The position numbers and the translations under genes were made by a program. A DNA stretch of 64,000 bases, taken from contig NC_014315.1 in the NCBI RefSeq assembly GCF_000143085.1, positions 1,952,001 through 2,016,000 on the forward strand. Direction: 5' to 3'. This DNA comes from Nitrosococcus watsonii C-113 (lineage in GTDB: Bacteria > Pseudomonadota > Gammaproteobacteria > Nitrosococcales > Nitrosococcaceae). This document shows, piece after piece, positions 41,389 to 48,954 of the stretch (the stretch's first letter is position 1; every line of letters begins with the position of its first letter). The notes under the pieces are model-generated. The model saw nothing but the letters and a program-made list of their open reading frames with translations, made no database searches and was not told the origin of the DNA.

Positions 41389-41486
41389 CGGCTTATCCCT
41401 CTATAGCCTAGCGTAATCACAAAAATTAAGTATATCCTACATCTTGCCCTTTTGAACCCTACCAAAATAAAGCACACGAAAATAGA

Positions 41487-42758
41487 TTGGAAAGAATCGG
41501 CATCAATATCACCGTAATAAGAAATAAAATCCACTTCAAGTTCTGGCTGAGCGGATTATTATTCCTTGCCATCGGAATCCCTATGGACTGCGCACTGGCA
41601 CAAGGCTTTGGGGAAACCATGGGATTGTTCAACGCTCTTACCGACACCAATCTTAATAAATCACAGCTCATGCAGTCTCTTGAACTAACAGTTGGCGGCT
41701 GGCTAGAAACTGGTTATACCTTCAATCCCGATGAGCCCAAGGACCGTTTTAATGGGCCTGTCATCTTTAATAACCGGGCTAATGAGCTTCTAGTAAACGA
41801 ATTCTATTTATTTCTCGAAAATGATGTAAATATTGAGGGAGATCGCTGGGATTTTGGCGGGCGTGTCGATTTCCTTTTTGGTACCGATGCCCGTTTCACC
41901 CAAGCGACAGGGCTAGATAACAATATTATTGGCGACAATACTTTTCGCCTCTATAAGTTTGCTATCCCGCAACTCTACGCAGAAACCTTTGTTCCTTACG
42001 GTAAGGGTATCACGGTAAGGCTTGGCCATTTTTATACCCCCATCGGGGTTGAAACGGTGACAGCGCCTGGCAACTTTTTTTATTCCCATACCTATACAGC
42101 GGAATATGGTGAACCCTTCACCCATACTGGTTTTTTGATCAGCTACCCCCTAACCGATCATATCGGTCTCAGCGGAGGCGGCGTCTTGGGTTGGGATAAT
42201 TTCTCCAAAGATCCTAAAAACTTAAATTTCCTGGGTGTCGCTAACTGGAACAGCGTCGATCAGCGAACATCTCTAAGTTTCACGATTATTACCGGCAATG
42301 TTTCCGGTGCAGGAAATGCTCAGAAAGATTCCGATCATAACCTTACTTTGTATAGCATAGTCATGAGTCATGACTTTACCGATTTTCTTCACTATACCTT
42401 TCAACAAACCCTAGGGGGAGGGCCAAGCATAATTAATACTCAGAAGTCGGGAAAATGGTTCGGCATTAGCCAGTATTTATATTTTAGCCTCAAAGAAACC
42501 CTAAGCACGGGATTACGGTTTGAATGGTTCCGCGATGATAAGGGTACTCGGGTCTTCATCAATGATCATTCTGGCTTTCCAATCTCCGCCGCTACAAACT
42601 ATTTTGCTATCACTGCCGGCTTAAACTGGCGGCCACTAAAATGGATCACTGTCCGCCCAGAGGTGCGCTATGATTGGGCTACTGACTTTAATGCCTTTGA
42701 TAATAACAGCGATAAAAATCAGTTTCTCGTCGCAGCGGATATCATCATCCGGTTCTGA
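41487..42758 (+). CDS. BBP2-like outer-membrane beta-barrel porin (paralog 1)
   Basis: Outer-membrane barrel of the DUF1597/BBP2 type. A signal peptide is visible (FKFWLSGLLFLAIGIPMDCALAQ), then many amphipathic beta strands such as DRWDFGGRVDFLFGTDARFT and WITVRPEVRYDWATDF, with terminal Phe (DIIIRF). It is highly similar throughout to the protein at 47707-48954, including the conserved block EPFTHTGF and SYPLTD. The start is weak: the frame opens with TTG at 41487. Alignment to the paralog puts the homologous start at an ATC (41502), preceded by GGAAAGAATCGGC. Substrate is unknown. Confidence 0.82.
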   Translation: MERIGINITVIRNKIHFKFWLSGLLFLAIGIPMDCALAQGFGETMGLFNALTDTNLNKSQLMQSLELTVGGWLETGYTFNPDEPKDRFNGPVIFNNRANELLVNEFYLFLENDVNIEGDRWDFGGRVDFLFGTDARFTQATGLDNNIIGDNTFRLYKFAIPQLYAETFVPYGKGITVRLGHFYTPIGVETVTAPGNFFYSHTYTAEYGEPFTHTGFLISYPLTDHIGLSGGGVLGWDNFSKDPKNLNFLGVANWNSVDQRTSLSFTIITGNVSGAGNAQKDSDHNLTLYSIVMSHDFTDFLHYTFQQTLGGGPSIINTQKSGKWFGISQYLYFSLKETLSTGLRFEWFRDDKGTRVFINDHSGFPISAATNYFAITAGLNWRPLKWITVRPEVRYDWATDFNAFDNNSDKNQFLVAADIIIRF

Positions 42759-42843
42759 TCGCTTTATCTTCTCTTCTGGTAAAGCTCTGGCGGTGAAAAA
42801 TCCAGAACGTGTGGATAGTCAACTCTTGTGGCCAAAATCAGCG

Positions 42844-42874
42844 CGCCTACCCGAGGTATTCGGGTAGGCGTTTT
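42844..42874 (+). terminator. Rho-independent terminator of porin paralog 1
   Basis: CGCCTACCCGA (42844-42854) and TCGGGTAGGCG (42860-42870) make a perfect 11-bp stem with loop GGTAT, followed by TTTT, 85 bp after the stop codon. Confidence 0.9.
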
Positions 42875-42889
42875 GGGCGCTTGACTATA

Positions 42890-43140
42890 TGGCAAACGAC
42901 TTCGCGTTCGCCAAAAAAAGCCCCAACGGGAAAACCGTCCGGACCCCAGACGCAGATCTGCTTGCGGCGACTCATTGAACAGGCAGATCTCGACAAGCCG
43001 GTAATACCTCACAAGTTACGTCACACAACTGCCGGAAGTTGGGGTCGAGTTGGTGGATATCCAGGCCTTGCTGGAACACGTAGATTTGTCGACGGCCCAG
43101 ATCTACACTCATATGAGCGAGGAGTGGATAACAGGGGTGC
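42890..43140 (+). pseudogene. Tyrosine recombinase (integrase/Xer-type) C-terminal remnant
   Basis: Two adjacent frames together spell the C-terminal catalytic domain of a phage-type integrase. The first reads RSPKKAPTGKPSGPQTQICL, RRLIEQADLDKPVIPHKLRH (HxxR motif), and after a frame change LVDIQALLEHVDLSTAQIYT (second His and catalytic Tyr). The N-terminal part is missing, so this is a decayed fragment. It follows directly after the porin terminator. Confidence 0.75.
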
Positions 43141-43271
43141 CTCCTAGCAGTTTCCTAAAGCCCAGCGTGGCTTTTTTGGAGAAAGCCTGCCCTCCCTACC
43201 AAGCAAGTTTATACTTGTTTACATATGATCTCTAAACGATAAATCCTTACATAAACGGAGATAAAGCAGCC

Positions 43272-43727
43272 ATGCCAATGCACAAAGCACGCGCTCTCGG
43301 AATCAACCATGTGGCCTTGGAAGTGGGCGATGTCGATGCGGCCTTGGATTTTTACGGCCAAATCGTCGATTTCAACTTGCGGGGACGCCATGAAGGAATG
43401 GCGTTCATTGACTTAGGCGATCAATTTATCGCCCTAATGAAAAAACGCACTCACACTCAAGAGCCGGATAAACAGCGCCACTTTGGCTTAGTGGTCGATG
43501 ACAAAAACAAGGTCAAAAAAACGCTTGAGACGTTAAATATCGAAACTGTGCCTGGTGAATTCCTCGACTTCATTGACCCCTGGGGCAATCGGGTGCAAAT
43601 CGTTCAGTACAGCGAACTTCAGTTTACCAAAGCGCCCCATATCTTACGGGGTATGGGATTCAAACAACTCGATAAATCCGATGAAGCAATACAAGCGCTT
43701 GCCAAAAAAGGAATGGCCCCGGAATAA
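43272..43727 (+). CDS. VOC-family (glyoxalase/dioxygenase fold) protein
   Basis: A 151-aa vicinal oxygen chelate protein. The N-terminus GINHVALEVGDVDAALDFYG carries the first metal-ligand His. HFGLVVDDKNK carries a further His and FIDPWGNRVQIVQ the typical C-terminal strand with the last ligand region. Fold members include glyoxalase I, dioxygenases and fosfomycin-resistance enzymes; the exact reaction cannot be assigned. GGAG lies 12 bases before the ATG. It lies in a patch with decayed mobile-element sequence. Alternative start: ATG at 43278. Confidence 0.85.
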   Translation: MPMHKARALGINHVALEVGDVDAALDFYGQIVDFNLRGRHEGMAFIDLGDQFIALMKKRTHTQEPDKQRHFGLVVDDKNKVKKTLETLNIETVPGEFLDFIDPWGNRVQIVQYSELQFTKAPHILRGMGFKQLDKSDEAIQALAKKGMAPE

Positions 43728-43884
43728 ACCTTTTAGGAACAACGAGAGCATTTGAACAAAACCTACGGGAATCTCCTTCCGAACTTTAAAGTTCAACGCA
43801 GGTTATATTGTAAAATACTAGACTTAATCTGACAGACGCACTATTAGAGGGCGAAGATTTCGCTGTCCGCTAATTCTGGTGCGA

Positions 43885-43908
43885 GGGAGGCATTTTCCTC
43901 TCCCTTTT
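43885..43908 (+). terminator. Weak terminator-like hairpin in the region after the VOC gene
   Basis: GGGAGG (43885-43890) pairs with TCTCCC (43899-43904), with one G-T pair, followed by TTTT. It is about 155 bp after the stop codon. Confidence 0.4.
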
Positions 43909-43983
43909 CTCCCCTATGATAATACAGAGAGACACTTTTCTTTGGGCACATGCACGGTTTCCCTGAAGGTTTGCATAGGTATT

Positions 43984-44112
43984 TTACCCTAGCAATACCG
44001 GCCCGAACGCGGTCTTTAAGAAAGACTCAAAGCCCGGACTATCGGCACAGTTCTTCTCTAGCGCCTCACGCTTGGTGGCCAAGCGGGAATTCGCTAGCTT
44101 GAGAGCTGCCGC
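43984..44112 (-). pseudogene. Decayed coding remnant of unknown origin
   Basis: In the 43728-44177 gap the minus strand has a protein-like open stretch after a TAG: ALKLANSRLATKREALEKNC, then ADSPGFESFLKTAFGPVLLG and stop (43984-43986). No start codon or family was recognised. The rest of the gap holds only the weak hairpin noted separately. Confidence 0.3.
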
Positions 44113-44177
44113 CTACACACTGGCACCTATGCACAGGACTCATAAACGGTAGAAGGCCAAATGGGGATAGCTCAATG

Positions 44178-44858
44178 CTAAGCAGTTCGGCGCTTTCGCA
44201 ACCGACGTCGAGCAAGACTTTCAGCGACCAATGGTGCCTCTACGTAGCAGTCATCAATGCCGAAGTCCATGACAAAGACATAGCCATGTCCCTGCAAGAA
44301 GCGTCGAATGTCCATTCGAACTGGATACCGATTGTGCTCGACAGTAATCACCCGAACCCGATAAAGGTCGAATGGAAAGCTTTTTAGGATGCGCAATTCC
44401 GAGCCTTCAGTATCCAGGCTCCAGTAATCAATGACTCGCGGAGCCTTAAATTGCTTCAGTACCGATGATATGGTACGTGAAGGCTTTAAAACACTAGGTG
44501 GATTACCGCGTGCGTCCTTGGGAAGAGAATATATTCGAGCTGCATGGGCTAACAGCACAGGGTGATAGTCGTCGAGCACCCCTCCCAGGGTTCCTGCCTC
44601 GACGAAATCGACTTTCTCTTCAGTGTCATACAAACAACAATTGATACAGCATGTATTGCGGTTCTTAATCAAGGCATTGTAAAAACTTGCGTTGGGCTCG
44701 ACGCATATGCCGCGCCAACCGTATCCGCTCTCCAGCAGATAGGTGTTGCTCGCGCTAATGCCATCAGATGCCCCTGAATCCAAGAAAAAACCATACCTGG
44801 GAAAGCCGAGTAGCTTCAACACGTATCGGTCCTGACCAAGTTGCGAATATTCGCCCAT
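44178..44858 (-). CDS. FkbM-family methyltransferase
   Basis: SAM-dependent O-methyltransferase of the FkbM family (226 aa). The start GEYSQLGQDRYVLKLLGFPR and the SAM-binding motif FFLDSGASDGISASNTY, then WRGICVEPN (motif II acidic end), are typical. DYWSLDTEGSELRILKSFPF is the family block with DTEG. FkbM proteins methylate sugars, polyketides, and protein- or peptide-linked groups. It follows the 2OG-Fe(II) oxygenase frame by 21 bp on the same strand, so both are likely cotranscribed and act in the same modification pathway. The C-terminus is unusually basic (LARRRLRKRRTA). Confidence 0.88.
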   Translation of the reverse strand: MGEYSQLGQDRYVLKLLGFPRYGFFLDSGASDGISASNTYLLESGYGWRGICVEPNASFYNALIKNRNTCCINCCLYDTEEKVDFVEAGTLGGVLDDYHPVLLAHAARIYSLPKDARGNPPSVLKPSRTISSVLKQFKAPRVIDYWSLDTEGSELRILKSFPFDLYRVRVITVEHNRYPVRMDIRRFLQGHGYVFVMDFGIDDCYVEAPLVAESLARRRLRKRRTA

Positions 44859-44879
44859 ATCTGATTAGCCCGACACGGG

Positions 44880-45761
44880 TTACCGGCCTTGCCGAAGGCC
44901 CGCCGACCGCCATGATCGCACCTTCCGACCAGCCACGATGGGTGAGTGAGCCGCTCGGTGATGGGCGTCATTCTCTCGACGCCCATACAGCCAACTGACA
45001 TTGATGCGATGATTCTGGTATCCTGGCTTGAATTCGACCTCCTGCGTTCCATGAAATAGATCAGCATTAAATACCACCGCCCTGTTTTGCCGATACGGAA
45101 TGGTGATTGAGCTAGCTCCTTGTGAAGCAAGAAAGGGAAGAATAACGTCCGCTCTTCCATTATAGGTTACGAAGTCCCAATGCAGAGGCGCATCTACGTT
45201 GTAGATGGTCATACCGCCCTGGTCAGGGATCGTATTTGCAGAGTCAGGCGTAATCCAGAGATTGGCCGTCACAGCGGCAAAGTCCGCATGCATCGAGGAT
45301 CCCGCGGGCAGATGCCGTGTATTCTTGAATGCCCATACTTGCGTCAGAGGATACCGCGGCAAGAATATCGCGGGAAGTTCCTCTCCCAGTTCTTCCGCGA
45401 TTTGTATTAGCAGCGGACATGTGAAGCCATCGTGGAAGAACGCTCCAAGGCGCCCATGCGCGTAACGGTTAGCAAACCATATCGTTGACTCCAAACAGAA
45501 CGCGCGAAGTTCCTCCAGCGCGTCCGCGGTCAGAAAGTCATCAATGACGGCAATGCCACTTCCGCGCTCGAGATACGTACGCTGCGCGCCGGCACGATCC
45601 CAAGACGGTGAAAGCGCCTTTTCAACGCACGGCGTTGCTCTGAGGTGGAGGATACGATTGTAGTATCGCCCAATCTGCTCGTAGTCATCCCCATCTAGCG
45701 GTTGCCGCCCACCGCCCCGCCGCCGCAGCCTAGCATCCGCGGCTTTATATCGTGGCAGCAA
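44880..45761 (-). CDS. 2OG-Fe(II) oxygenase, catalytic part (probably frameshifted)
   Basis: Carries a 2-oxoglutarate-dependent dioxygenase fold. From the first codon of this frame, the metal triad is His158-x-Asp160 in GSSMHADFAAVTANLWIT and His237 in FNADLFHGTQEV. The 2OG-binding Arg252 is in YQNHRINVSWLYG. The frame opens only with a TTG (MLPRYKAAD) and overlaps the upstream frame by 17 bp. Continuity of sense across the junction (GKKGILDSALLL into LLPRYKAADARL) suggests one protein split by an indel. Possible substrates: an amino acid, a peptide or the Thr-rich protein encoded upstream. It is followed by an FkbM methyltransferase. Confidence 0.8.
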   Translation of the reverse strand: MLPRYKAADARLRRRGGGRQPLDGDDYEQIGRYYNRILHLRATPCVEKALSPSWDRAGAQRTYLERGSGIAVIDDFLTADALEELRAFCLESTIWFANRYAHGRLGAFFHDGFTCPLLIQIAEELGEELPAIFLPRYPLTQVWAFKNTRHLPAGSSMHADFAAVTANLWITPDSANTIPDQGGMTIYNVDAPLHWDFVTYNGRADVILPFLASQGASSITIPYRQNRAVVFNADLFHGTQEVEFKPGYQNHRINVSWLYGRRENDAHHRAAHSPIVAGRKVRSWRSAGLRQGR

Positions 45762-46170
45762 CTCTTAAGAGTAATGCCGAATCAAGGATTCCTTTTTTGC
45801 CAAGGTACGTGAAATGCTCGATGTCGTGCCGCAGCTTAGGGTGAGTCAAGTAAGGCTTGATTGGTCGCTCGGAAGGAGCCTCGATGTTGGCGTCCCGGAA
45901 CTCGGTATAATCCTGCGCCCCCCATCTTAACAACGCATATAATTCCGCAGCTTGCCCCGCGAGCCACAACGACCCACTTCGCATAGCTTCGGCAACCAAC
46001 TTCTGAAGCCATGCTAGCGACTTCTGATCTTGCATAAACTCACGTGACCAGCATTGCAGAACTTCTCTCCGACGACTACGCTGCGTCAGCAAATCTCCGA
46101 AGGAACGAAGTGCCCCTTCATCACGAGGGTTCTCGCTCAGGACCTTGCGTAGCGTCTCGATACTGTCCAT
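45745..46170 (-). CDS. N-terminal part of the split oxygenase (TPR-like)
   Basis: A 141-aa frame starting MDSIETLRKVLSENPRDEGA, with helices reminiscent of tetratricopeptide repeats (LRSFGDLLTQRSRRREVLQC), then KLRHDIEHFTYLGKKGILDS. The last block (HDIEHFTYL) commonly precedes the catalytic core in long 2OG-Fe(II) oxygenases as I recall them. Its final residues (RVAATI) are read in the wrong frame after the supposed indel near 45760. If the two frames were joined, the product would be about 430 aa. It starts 39 bp after the Thr-rich protein gene. Confidence 0.6.
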   Translation of the reverse strand: MDSIETLRKVLSENPRDEGALRSFGDLLTQRSRRREVLQCWSREFMQDQKSLAWLQKLVAEAMRSGSLWLAGQAAELYALLRWGAQDYTEFRDANIEAPSERPIKPYLTHPKLRHDIEHFTYLGKKGILDSALLLRVAATI

Positions 46171-46209
46171 GATCCCGGATCAACTAGTCAATTACCAGTG
46201 ACAGTAAAA

Positions 46210-46965
46210 TCAGTAGTCGCCCAAATCATTCAGTACTCCCGTGGCTCTCAGCTGTAAGGCGTAGTCGACCAACGCCGAAAGCGTGGTTAGATACGCGAGG
46301 CGATCTTCGCCCCTCAATACCTGCTCAAAGCCTGCCGCGATCACCCCATCGGTAAAGGGTCCCGCAAATGTAGCATTGGTAAATATCGTACTAAGTGTCT
46401 CTGGGGACACAGGATCAGTCAAAGGCGCCGTGAATTGAGTGGTCGTTATGCCGGTAATTTCGGTATCTGGCATAAACGTTTGAGTGAAAGTGAGCGTCTC
46501 CGTGGCGATTGCTGTCTGTGTCTCTGGAGCGGTGGCTGTTTGCGGTGCCTCGCTCCCCTGGGAAGAAGTCCTTAATAGCGCAGAGAGAAGAATGAATACA
46601 ATGTCATACCGCAACGGGACCTGCTGCCAAGAACTTTGAGTCAAGGAGAAGACAGTGTTTAAATCCTGAGACATGGCGGCGGCATGACTCAACTCCCGGA
46701 GAAACTGGCGCTCGTCAACTTTCTGTTGTTTGAAAGAGATCTTTAGCTGCTGCAGTATCCTCGGCGACGAGACAATTGAATAGATCAGGCGATTGGTAAC
46801 ATGTGCCGCGCCGGAATCGACTTTTTCCTTCTTGATGTATTCTGCGACAAGAGTCGTCGGATCCGTCACCAACTCTTCACGGAGCAAGAAGTCGCGCGAG
46901 ACTTCTTGCATGAGTGCATGCATACGCCGATTCTGTGCCGCTTGCGTTAGAATGCTTTCGGTCAT
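46210..46965 (-). CDS. Thr-rich protein of unknown function, first gene of oxygenase/methyltransferase cassette
   Basis: I do not recognise this 251-aa protein. From the chosen ATG at 46965 (GGAGG 6-7 bases upstream; a 46983 ATG is the alternative), residues 1-140 are helical and charged (MTESILTQAAQNRRMHALMQ, DFLLREELVTDPTTLVAEYI). Residues 145-215 are extremely rich in Thr, Ala, Phe and Pro (TATAPETQTAIATETLTFTQ, FTAPLTDPVSPETLSTIFTN). The C-terminus is again helical (AYLTTLSALVDYALQLRA). There is no signal peptide or transmembrane helix. Position directly before the oxygenase and methyltransferase suggests it may be their substrate or a partner. Confidence 0.75.
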   Translation of the reverse strand: MTESILTQAAQNRRMHALMQEVSRDFLLREELVTDPTTLVAEYIKKEKVDSGAAHVTNRLIYSIVSSPRILQQLKISFKQQKVDERQFLRELSHAAAMSQDLNTVFSLTQSSWQQVPLRYDIVFILLSALLRTSSQGSEAPQTATAPETQTAIATETLTFTQTFMPDTEITGITTTQFTAPLTDPVSPETLSTIFTNATFAGPFTDGVIAAGFEQVLRGEDRLAYLTTLSALVDYALQLRATGVLNDLGDY

Positions 46966-47706
46966 TGCTTTCCTCCGCATCATGCTCCCCTCAAACTCGA
47001 TATGAGGAGAGAAACTTCAGTTCTATAAGCGAAGTAGTTCTCGCTCGCGTTCCGCCATTCGGGAAATTCACTTACCCTAGGCCACCGTACCTAGACAGGG
47101 GTTGTCGGCAAGGTCCCCATAGCAAGAGGGCTGCGGCGTGCTTCAAAACCCCATTCTATAGTTTAGTTATAGACGGAACTATATAGAGAAAGCAAGTTCT
47201 AGTAACAGCGATCATCAAGGTAAACGGCTCGGAAGATCGCGTCCATCTGCAAGGTAAACGGCTCGGAAGATCGCGTCCATCTGCTTATCGAGTAACTGCC
47301 GAAGCTCTCGATCAACGTGCTGGTGAACACTTTGAAGTCCACTTCCCCCCGCTGCATACGCTTTTTGAATACCCCTATTTCGTGTTTGAGTAAGGGTGCG
47401 GCTTTAATGATCGCGGTTGTATTTTGAATGCAGCGCAGGCGGCACCACTATCGAAACACTCAGAAAGTACATTCGTGGATAAAACACCCCCACCTAGAAA
47501 CCACTTCACGATTCCCGCCCGCATCCCCACCTAAACGAGCGGAGATTATACGGATTTACGCTAAGTTTAAACAGAGTGTACACTTCTCTGTGGGCGTATG
47601 AGGAGAGCTCTTTAAATTATTAAATCATAAGCGGTAACCCCTCCTCATTCCCACGGTGTTTCTGATTTAAAACGCCACATATCACAACAAATAGATGGGG
47701 AATAAC
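46966..47706. other. Intergenic region with short tandem duplication
   Basis: About 740 bp between divergent genes. It holds an exact 34-bp tandem duplication (47217-47284) and a minus-strand open stretch that reads SVHQHVDRELRQLLDKQMDA (about 47268-47327), which looks like a decayed coding remnant. I did not identify its family. Promoters for the Thr-rich gene (near 46990-47180) and for the porin gene are expected. Confidence 0.45.
47217..47284. repeat. Exact 34-bp tandem duplication
   Basis: The 34-bp unit beginning AAGGTAAACGGCTCGGAAGA and ending TCCATCTGC occurs twice with no spacer (47217-47250 and 47251-47284). A single recent duplication event is likely. It disrupts the frame of a minus-strand coding-like stretch (34 is not a multiple of 3). 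Confidence 0.95.
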
Positions 47707-48954
47707 ATGAATACTACTGCGATAAGCAAGAAAACCCGTCTCAATCCATGGCTGAGAGGATTGCTATTTCTGACCACCGCAGGCGGTGTACAGGCAGAGG
47801 ATTTTAGAGAAACCACAGGACTGTTCGATGCCTTAACCGGCATCAGTATCAATGAAACAAAATTCATGCAGTCACTAGGAGTAACGATTAATGGCTGGCT
47901 GGAAGGCGGCTATACCATCAATCCAGATGATCCCCGTGATAACTTCAATGGACCCGTCACCTTTAATGACCGTGCTAATGAATTCATGGGAAACGAAGCC
48001 TATCTGTTCTTTGAACGCGGCGTGAATATCGAGGGAGATCGCTGGGACTTTGGCGGGCGAGTCGATTTTCTTTTTGGTACCGATACCCGCTTCACCCAGG
48101 CAGCGGGCCTAGATGACAACATCATCGGTGATGATACTTTTCGCTTCTACAAATTTGCCATCCCGCAACTGTACGTGGAAGCCTATGCTCCCTATGGCAA
48201 CGGCATCACGCTAAAGCTTGGTCATTTTTATACGATCATCGGTAATGAAGTCGTGACGGCGCCTGGTAACTTCTTTTACTCCCATGCCTATACCATGCAA
48301 TATGGCGAACCCTTTACCCATACTGGTTTTTTGGCCAGTTACCCCCTGACCGACAATATCAGCATCAACGGCGGCGGCGTTCTCGGTTGGGACAATTTTT
48401 CCAAAGATGGCGAGAATCTGAATTTCTTAGGTGGGGTAAGCTGGAGTAGCGATGATGCGCAGACCTCTTTAGCCGTCGCCATCATCACGGGCAATGTTTC
48501 TAATGTGGAGGGAACTTCTGATGATCCTGATAACAACCGCACCCTCTATAGCGTGGTCTTCAACCACGATATCACAGATCGGCTTCATTATACTTTTCAG
48601 CATGATCTAGGTATAGAACAGCATGCCATTAATAACAACAAATCGGCGGAATGGTTTGGTATCAATCAATATTTATTTTATGACATCAATGAAACCCTAA
48701 GCACGGGTTTACGGTTCGAGTGGTTCCGCGATGACGACGGCGACCGTGTCTTCGTCAATGACGGCGCCGGTCTCCCCGTCTCTGCCGCTACCAGCTATTT
48801 CGCCATCACCGGCGGGATAAACTGGCGGCCATTAAGATGGGTCACCGTTCGCCCAGAGGTACGCTATGACTGGGCCACCAATTTCAAGGCTTTTGACAAT
48901 AACAGCGACAAAAATCAATTTGTCATCGCGGCGGATGTAATCGTTCAGTTTTAG
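47707..48954 (+). CDS. BBP2-like outer-membrane beta-barrel porin (paralog 2)
   Basis: Paralog of the protein at 41487-42758, with strong identity over the full length (NIEGDRWDFGGRVDFLFGTD, TLSTGLRFEWFRDDDGDRVF, WVTVRPEVRYDWATNF, terminal VQF). The start is the ATG at 47707 (MNTTAISKKTRLNPWLRG), with GGGGA 6 bases upstream; an earlier ATG at 47695 lacks a Shine-Dalgarno. The signal peptide ends near GGVQAED. It is probably expressed more reliably than paralog 1, which lacks a good start. The two paralogs bracket a 5-kb region with the cassette, an integrase remnant and the VOC gene. Confidence 0.9.
   Translation: MNTTAISKKTRLNPWLRGLLFLTTAGGVQAEDFRETTGLFDALTGISINETKFMQSLGVTINGWLEGGYTINPDDPRDNFNGPVTFNDRANEFMGNEAYLFFERGVNIEGDRWDFGGRVDFLFGTDTRFTQAAGLDDNIIGDDTFRFYKFAIPQLYVEAYAPYGNGITLKLGHFYTIIGNEVVTAPGNFFYSHAYTMQYGEPFTHTGFLASYPLTDNISINGGGVLGWDNFSKDGENLNFLGGVSWSSDDAQTSLAVAIITGNVSNVEGTSDDPDNNRTLYSVVFNHDITDRLHYTFQHDLGIEQHAINNNKSAEWFGINQYLFYDINETLSTGLRFEWFRDDDGDRVFVNDGAGLPVSAATSYFAITGGINWRPLRWVTVRPEVRYDWATNFKAFDNNSDKNQFVIAADVIVQF

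Follow-up and report, generated by a model that had tools for sequence, protein, structure and literature searches.

To our knowledge, the pythonamide cluster is the closest characterised system to the gene set considered here, a compact minus-strand cassette of Nitrosococcus watsonii C-113 that encodes a threonine-rich protein (ORF1, from open reading frame), a 2-oxoglutarate (2OG)-Fe(II) oxygenase and an FkbM-family methyltransferase. The cassette lies in a stretch of 64,000 nucleotides of contig NC_014315.1 (positions 1,952,001 to 2,016,000, forward strand), here called the window, to which all coordinates refer. On sequence grounds we suggest that the set is probably a maturation cassette like those of ribosomally synthesised and post-translationally modified peptides (RiPPs), with a leader that library models do not recognise.

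According to the published accounts (PMC9259500, PMC11285071), the pythonamide cluster of ‘Ca. Eudoremicrobium’ comprises the precursor gene ereA, the oxygenase gene ereI, the FkbM gene ereM, the epimerase gene ereD and ereB. EreI was assayed with iron and 2OG, EreM N-methylates the backbone at Val (5/6 of the methylations only with EreI co-expressed), and only methylated cores were found to carry oxygen. Pythonamide is similar to the window in the order precursor-oxygenase-FkbM (ereA-ereI-ereM), apart from the split gene of the window, and shares with the wider cassette family a precursor, an oxygenase, an FkbM enzyme, a radical S-adenosylmethionine (rSAM) epimerase and a repetitive core. However, EreA is described there as a proteusin, whereas ORF1 matches no NHLP leader model, and EreI is placed in the aspartyl/asparaginyl beta-hydroxylase family; also unlike pythonamide, the window genome yielded no family rSAM.

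The cassette and its counterparts

The cassette has the following features.

46210..46983, minus strand: ORF1, threonine-rich precursor-like protein of 257 aa with putative leader, Thr-rich core and C-terminal motif (from the list of open reading frames)
46735..46953, minus strand: putative ORF1 leader region, residues 11-83 (match to a hidden Markov model of two plasmid-borne precursors)
46345..46569, minus strand: putative Thr-rich core of ORF1, residues 139-213
46219..46281, minus strand: ORF1 C-terminal motif ALVDYAxQLRAxGxL, residues 235-255 (also in the Methylocapsa precursor)
45745..46170, minus strand: ORF2a, the part of the oxygenase gene that precedes the frameshift and encodes the N-terminus (tblastn to two intact oxygenases)
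44880..45761, minus strand: ORF2b, catalytic 2OG-Fe(II) oxygenase domain (alignment, model, Foldseek)
44178..44858, minus strand: FkbM-family methyltransferase, 226 aa (PF05050, 1.8e-14)
47211..47278, no strand: 34-bp tandem duplication upstream of ORF1 (sequence analysis)

The tight minus-strand spacing reported in the first-pass annotation holds: ORF1 is followed after 39 bp by ORF2a, which overlaps ORF2b by 17 bp, and the FkbM gene starts 21 bp further on. The two middle frames are by sequence comparison one oxygenase gene broken by a frameshift near 45.75 kb, because each matches a part of one intact oxygenase in two relatives: locus L008 of Methylocapsa sp. S129, and locus L005, which lies on a plasmid of Cupriavidus oxalaticus. 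For ORF2a this is the N-terminal part (tblastn; 34% and 6.9e-8 for Methylocapsa, 26% and 4.7e-4 for Cupriavidus) and for ORF2b the C-terminal part; two genuine genes are ruled out, since both match one protein in the relatives. Programmed frameshifting was also considered, and reading of the sequence gave no support for it. Either the oxygenase has decayed recently or the frameshift is a sequencing error. Decay, if any, would be recent, because ORF1, the FkbM gene and both oxygenase halves show no other break in their frames and the catalytic residues are kept.

ORF2b stays open for 293 codons without a stop. Its residues H158, D160, H237 and R252 (HxD...H, R) are invariant in all 24 aligned rows; we take the first three to be the iron triad and R252 to be the 2OG-binding arginine. 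The earlier oxygenase assignment is thus borne out by the motif and the model, whereas the Pfam profile PF13640 gives just 13.8 bits, under its cut-off of 27. In the predicted structure (pLDDT 77.5) the fold agrees with the double-stranded beta-helix of the 2OG-Fe(II) superfamily. Foldseek matches this model best to prolyl 4-hydroxylases and other 2OG-Fe(II) enzymes (E 1.9e-7), and 2OG enzymes are the majority among the 50 matches listed, with query-normalised TM scores of just 0.33-0.49. The FkbM assignment stands on PF05050 (54.7 bits, gathering cut-off 22.7), while NCBIfam TIGR01444 gives 33.5 bits, under its cut-off of 37.7. The enzyme is about 55% identical to the FkbM proteins of the Methylocapsa and Cupriavidus cassettes and at most 43% identical to the other relatives compared.

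ORF1 has an alternative in-frame start at 46965, giving 251 aa, which is likelier than 46983 because GGAGG stands six bases upstream. The Thr-rich segment noticed earlier is real, with 22 Thr among the 75 residues at 139-213. Within residues 149-169 all nine Thr (9/9) fall on odd positions (best-window parity test, P about 0.001); counted simply, T-x-T pairs are not unusually frequent (P 0.40), so that simple periodicity is not significant. ORF1 has no Pfam family above cut-off and no NCBIfam family, and no signal peptide is evident when the sequence is read, no predictor having been used. The 617 bp upstream are single-copy in the genome, and promoter and terminator scans gave results at chance level.

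Fifty oxygenase loci from one scan of genome contigs, together with three plasmid matches that were opened, were compared for their neighbourhoods. At the Methylocapsa locus the ORF1 homologue, an rSAM gene, the oxygenase and the FkbM gene stand all in a row. The Cupriavidus locus carries a precursor-like protein with 12 [GA]TE[MQV]SPG repeats, the oxygenase and the FkbM gene; here the equivalence to ORF1 is by position and C-terminal motif only, the motif shared by ORF1 and the Methylocapsa precursor scoring 37.5 against 30.5 for the best of 2836 background ORFs (0/1000 shuffles). The three families, whose co-occurrence elsewhere had been proposed as a check, are therefore found in the same order in Methylocapsa and Cupriavidus, at three loci only including the window, and with the rSAM gene intervening in Methylocapsa. 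This shared order supports, at the level of sequence, that the cassette is more than a chance neighbourhood and may work as a single unit, with ORF1 as the substrate of the oxygenase and FkbM. Among 57 loci, our own included, the window FkbM matches only its own loci and those of Methylocapsa and Cupriavidus, and ORF1 only its own and that of Methylocapsa. At E<=1e-20 the FkbM profile matched one of 14 hand-picked oxygenase-holding genomes, which account for 15 of the 50 loci; this one is Methylocapsa.

The Cupriavidus set has no annotated rSAM gene in the 20.8 kb covered at this locus; it is accompanied by an aldo/keto reductase and by a second 2OG oxygenase. Since it likewise has no annotated rSAM and has these two further enzymes, the rSAM-less version of the cassette may be functional.

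Further members were sought more widely. ORF1 gives no match in viral contigs, in plasmids or, at E<=0.01, in 58 further genomes that include three congeners; because ORF1 alone is a poor probe, the family was reached via the oxygenase and then the Methylocapsa precursor. The window oxygenase finds only one 30% fragment in the 58 genomes (G014, E 3.9e-4), and an FkbM scan of viral contigs found nothing. FkbM profile searches (E<=1e-45) covered four genome sets: 398 Pseudomonadota genomes gave our own and one other (G433, adjoining a glycosyltransferase), 298 Methylocapsa-family genomes gave Methylocapsa S129 itself only, 377 Methylocapsa-order genomes gave itself and two others, and 379 Undibacterium-order genomes gave none, an empty answer that shows nothing by itself, since this set includes no positive control; the Cupriavidus plasmid is outside it. 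Over the stretches covered, the three other matches (L059, L080, L081, L082) lack a cassette oxygenase, a precursor and an rSAM. Together with the 14 genomes above, 1,466 partly overlapping genome scans yielded no further cassette. No paper listed in the literature searches describes the ORF1 family, a weak negative since only open-licence PubMed Central was covered.

By reading, the oxygenases of all three cassettes end in a short WRSA- or RSA-like tail, as do the FkbM proteins of Methylocapsa and Cupriavidus; the window FkbM has no such tail. In L005:9524-11537 and L008:7416-9637 the tails are WRSA or RSAVW in oxygenase and FkbM. A docking tag is a possible role.

Leader homology and the link to rSAM enzymes

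Apart from one plasmid search, the precursor comparisons were run against the 2836 background ORFs. ORF1 is homologous to the Methylocapsa precursor (phmmer 1.5e-15), and a chain leads from there to two plasmid loci: the Methylocapsa precursor matches a Streptomyces canus protein (L061) at 2e-7, and this matches a protein of Thermus aquaticus plasmid pTA14 (L062) at about 1e-3. The direct match of ORF1 to the Streptomyces protein is 0.008, and in the plasmid search the Methylocapsa precursor retrieved the Streptomyces protein at E 0.009. A model built from the Streptomyces and Thermus proteins only matches ORF1 residues 11-83 with E=3.7e-5, while the best background ORF reaches 0.12.

An rSAM gene lies immediately downstream of each of the Methylocapsa, Streptomyces and Thermus precursors. 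The first two rSAM proteins are 49% identical, and their profile has PDB 8ai1, YydG/EpeE, as its best solved-structure match. The YydG/EpeE epipeptide epimerases are also the nearest NCBIfam family for all three (TIGR04078), with scores of 41.7 to 81.3 bits that stay far under the cut-off of 300; compared with those systems, the linked precursor-like proteins here have 168-368 aa. Hence, by homology, ORF1 is distantly related to precursor-like proteins which adjoin a YydG-like rSAM. The first-pass annotation gave the Thr-rich protein no recognised function; its leader now has kin among these rSAM-paired proteins. Other hypothetical proteins linked to rSAM genes (L064, L065, L075, L077) showed no sequence tie to ORF1, and L066 showed a weak one.

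A long leader is in common with proteusins. The NHLP models match neither ORF1 nor the Methylocapsa precursor at E<=5, and residues 18-46 of the Streptomyces precursor match TIGR04509 below threshold (E=0.0012, 18.8 bits, cut-off 34). Because no NHLP leader model matches ORF1, the proteusin label is, on its sequence, not earned.

Proposed maturation and its alternatives

We suggest that ORF1 is a long precursor with an N-terminal leader recognised by the enzymes, a modified Thr-rich core and a conserved C-terminal segment, these roles, like all of the chemistry and the fate of the product, being what we infer. The oxygenase and FkbM would dock on the leader and then modify the core, the oxygenase by hydroxylating core residues and FkbM by methylating on oxygen or on backbone nitrogen. 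The candidate modifications are O-methylation of Thr, as the first-pass annotation supposed, backbone N-methylation and methylation of a new hydroxyl; N-methylation of the backbone would be as plausible as modification of Thr. In Methylocapsa the YydG-like rSAM would act on the core too, probably by epimerisation. The copy in the window is, from its sequence, probably decayed or reduced, unless the frameshift is a sequencing error, because the oxygenase is frameshifted and no family rSAM was found.

Several points weigh against a RiPP-like cassette. The cassette is rare (three loci found), and 51 of the 53 other oxygenase loci are without this FkbM in the DNA covered; 35 of the 53 cover at least 1.5 kb on both sides, which limits what the absence shows. 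In the oxygenase tree the three cassette enzymes group together (95/99; 94% of bootstrap trees; 0/500 shuffles), which favours the cassette reading, but those of Cupriavidus and Methylocapsa are flagged as long branches of unsure placement. Leader homology to ORF1 is undetectable in the Cupriavidus precursor. The family rSAM was not found in the window genome, where the best match (2.1e-5) reads as PqqE-like. A scan of nine window ORFs, seven flanking the cassette and two farther off, recognised neither a protease nor a transporter, and the structure prediction of ORF1 is unusable (pLDDT 39.8). The argument for a peptide as substrate depends on ORF1. Neither enzyme family is peptide-specific: the oxygenase family adjoins hydantoinase/oxoprolinase and ABC-transporter genes in L006:9353-10696 and L007:9485-10711, and FkbM relatives at about 40% identity adjoin glycosyltransferases in L059 and L080. 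L057:7335-8579 resembles the setting of L006 and L007, judged from ORF sizes only, and beside the FkbM relative in L081 no glycosyltransferase was recognised.

These last neighbourhoods would suit enzymes that tailor a surface glycan or a small molecule, a sugar or an amino-acid metabolite, with ORF1 as an unrelated neighbour or a structural protein. We consider this unlikely, as an ORF1-type or position-equivalent protein, the oxygenase and FkbM stay associated in one member each of the Gamma-, Alpha- and Betaproteobacteria, a glycosyltransferase is neither annotated in the 20.8 kb around the Cupriavidus set nor found in the three Methylocapsa neighbours scanned, and the ORF1 leader has kin among rSAM-paired proteins. 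Somewhat less probable still is that an intact Thr-rich protein is decorated whole and never cut to a peptide. The size of ORF1, its conserved segment after the core, the Cupriavidus repeats that by reading alternate with helix-like stretches, and the lack of a recognised protease among the ORFs scanned nearby would fit this, but homology of the leader to the rSAM-adjoining protein of Thermus, with its alternating Asn-rich segment, suggests a peptide product, and a signal peptide is not evident by reading.

That the set is a functionless remnant in this strain stands at even chances, and would be compatible with a RiPP-like origin. The frameshifted oxygenase, the missing family rSAM, a weak integrase-like scrap, the tandem duplication and the absence of the set from the congeners examined speak for decay, while the otherwise open reading frames and the intact catalytic residues speak against it.

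Genomic setting and the wider family

The cassette lies in a segment with these features.

41454..47561, no strand: island of about 6.1 kb, missing in two same-genus genomes (blastn synteny; ends from locus L073)
41487..42758, plus strand: extra BBP2 porin copy (PF07642, 5.9e-88; 67% to the other porin)
42809..43235, plus strand: possible tyrosine-recombinase remnant in two frames (weak PF00589; HKLRHT motif by eye)

Both congeners align on either side of the island but not across it (blastn), the flanks being 43 bp apart in L073 (G002) and about 1.1 kb apart in L074 (G001). The island holds the extra porin, a VOC-family gene, the weak integrase-like scrap and the cassette. The flanking paralogous porins named in the first-pass annotation are present as a BBP2 pair, the second at 47695-48954, with the cassette between them. 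The extra copy probably arose together with the island event or through it, since three congeners have one porin match each. The mobile-element scars rest on the scrap, for which PF00589 matches 43050-43235 only (E=0.018, 15.3 bits, cut-off 27.1); no family matched 42809-43147. The proposed acquisition of the module agrees with the absence of 41454-47561 from two congeners, but loss in the relatives would fit too.

Related rSAM loci carry other repetitive proteins. In L063:4950-7153 and L067:444-2589 the family rSAM is followed by mutually homologous proteins of 354-368 aa (about 4e-15) with, by reading, a long alternating Val/Ala/Ile segment. The Thermus protein (L062:2599-6074) has 301 aa and an Asn-rich alternating segment with 27 N, 12 N-x-N and 13 N-x5-N pairs (0/1000 shuffles as high); its neighbours are the YydG-like rSAM, a PF05175 methyltransferase (9.6e-7) and a protein of the SdpI family. 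On Klebsiella sp. PL-2018 plasmid pmk4 (L077:1859-6785) an SdpI-family protein, a 244-aa precursor-like protein, an rSAM and a PF05175 methyltransferase (5.8e-12) are encoded; the 244-aa protein has an Asn/Ala ladder with 7 N-x5-N pairs (4/1000 shuffles as high), its N-x-N count being not unusual (181/1000). PF05175 is the family given for PoyE/AerE in PMC9259500. The Thermus and Klebsiella loci look like polytheonamide-type pathways outside the proteusins, with no recognised NHLP leader in Thermus.

A bolder reading, with less than even chances, is that ORF1 and its kin would represent a RiPP class of their own, separate from the proteusins, with long precursors, an undescribed leader, low-complexity cores and interchangeable maturases. 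Its cores would be Thr-alternating, Gly-Thr, GTEMSPG heptads, Asn-rich ladders and perhaps alternating Val/Ala (rSAM-linked only), and its maturases an rSAM epimerase, a PF05175 amide methyltransferase, or a 2OG oxygenase with FkbM. In a branch with no adjacent rSAM, the window and Cupriavidus, hydrophilic Thr-rich cores would be hydroxylated and methylated, these steps having taken the place of epimerisation.

If the proposed RiPP-like role of the cassette is true, an unannotated protein family would be linked to RiPP maturation, and the FkbM-oxygenase pair would have a further natural setting, after pythonamide, in which it acts on a peptide. It would also draw attention to the Thermus and Klebsiella loci as polytheonamide-like clusters, in which the SdpI-type protein is a putative immunity factor.

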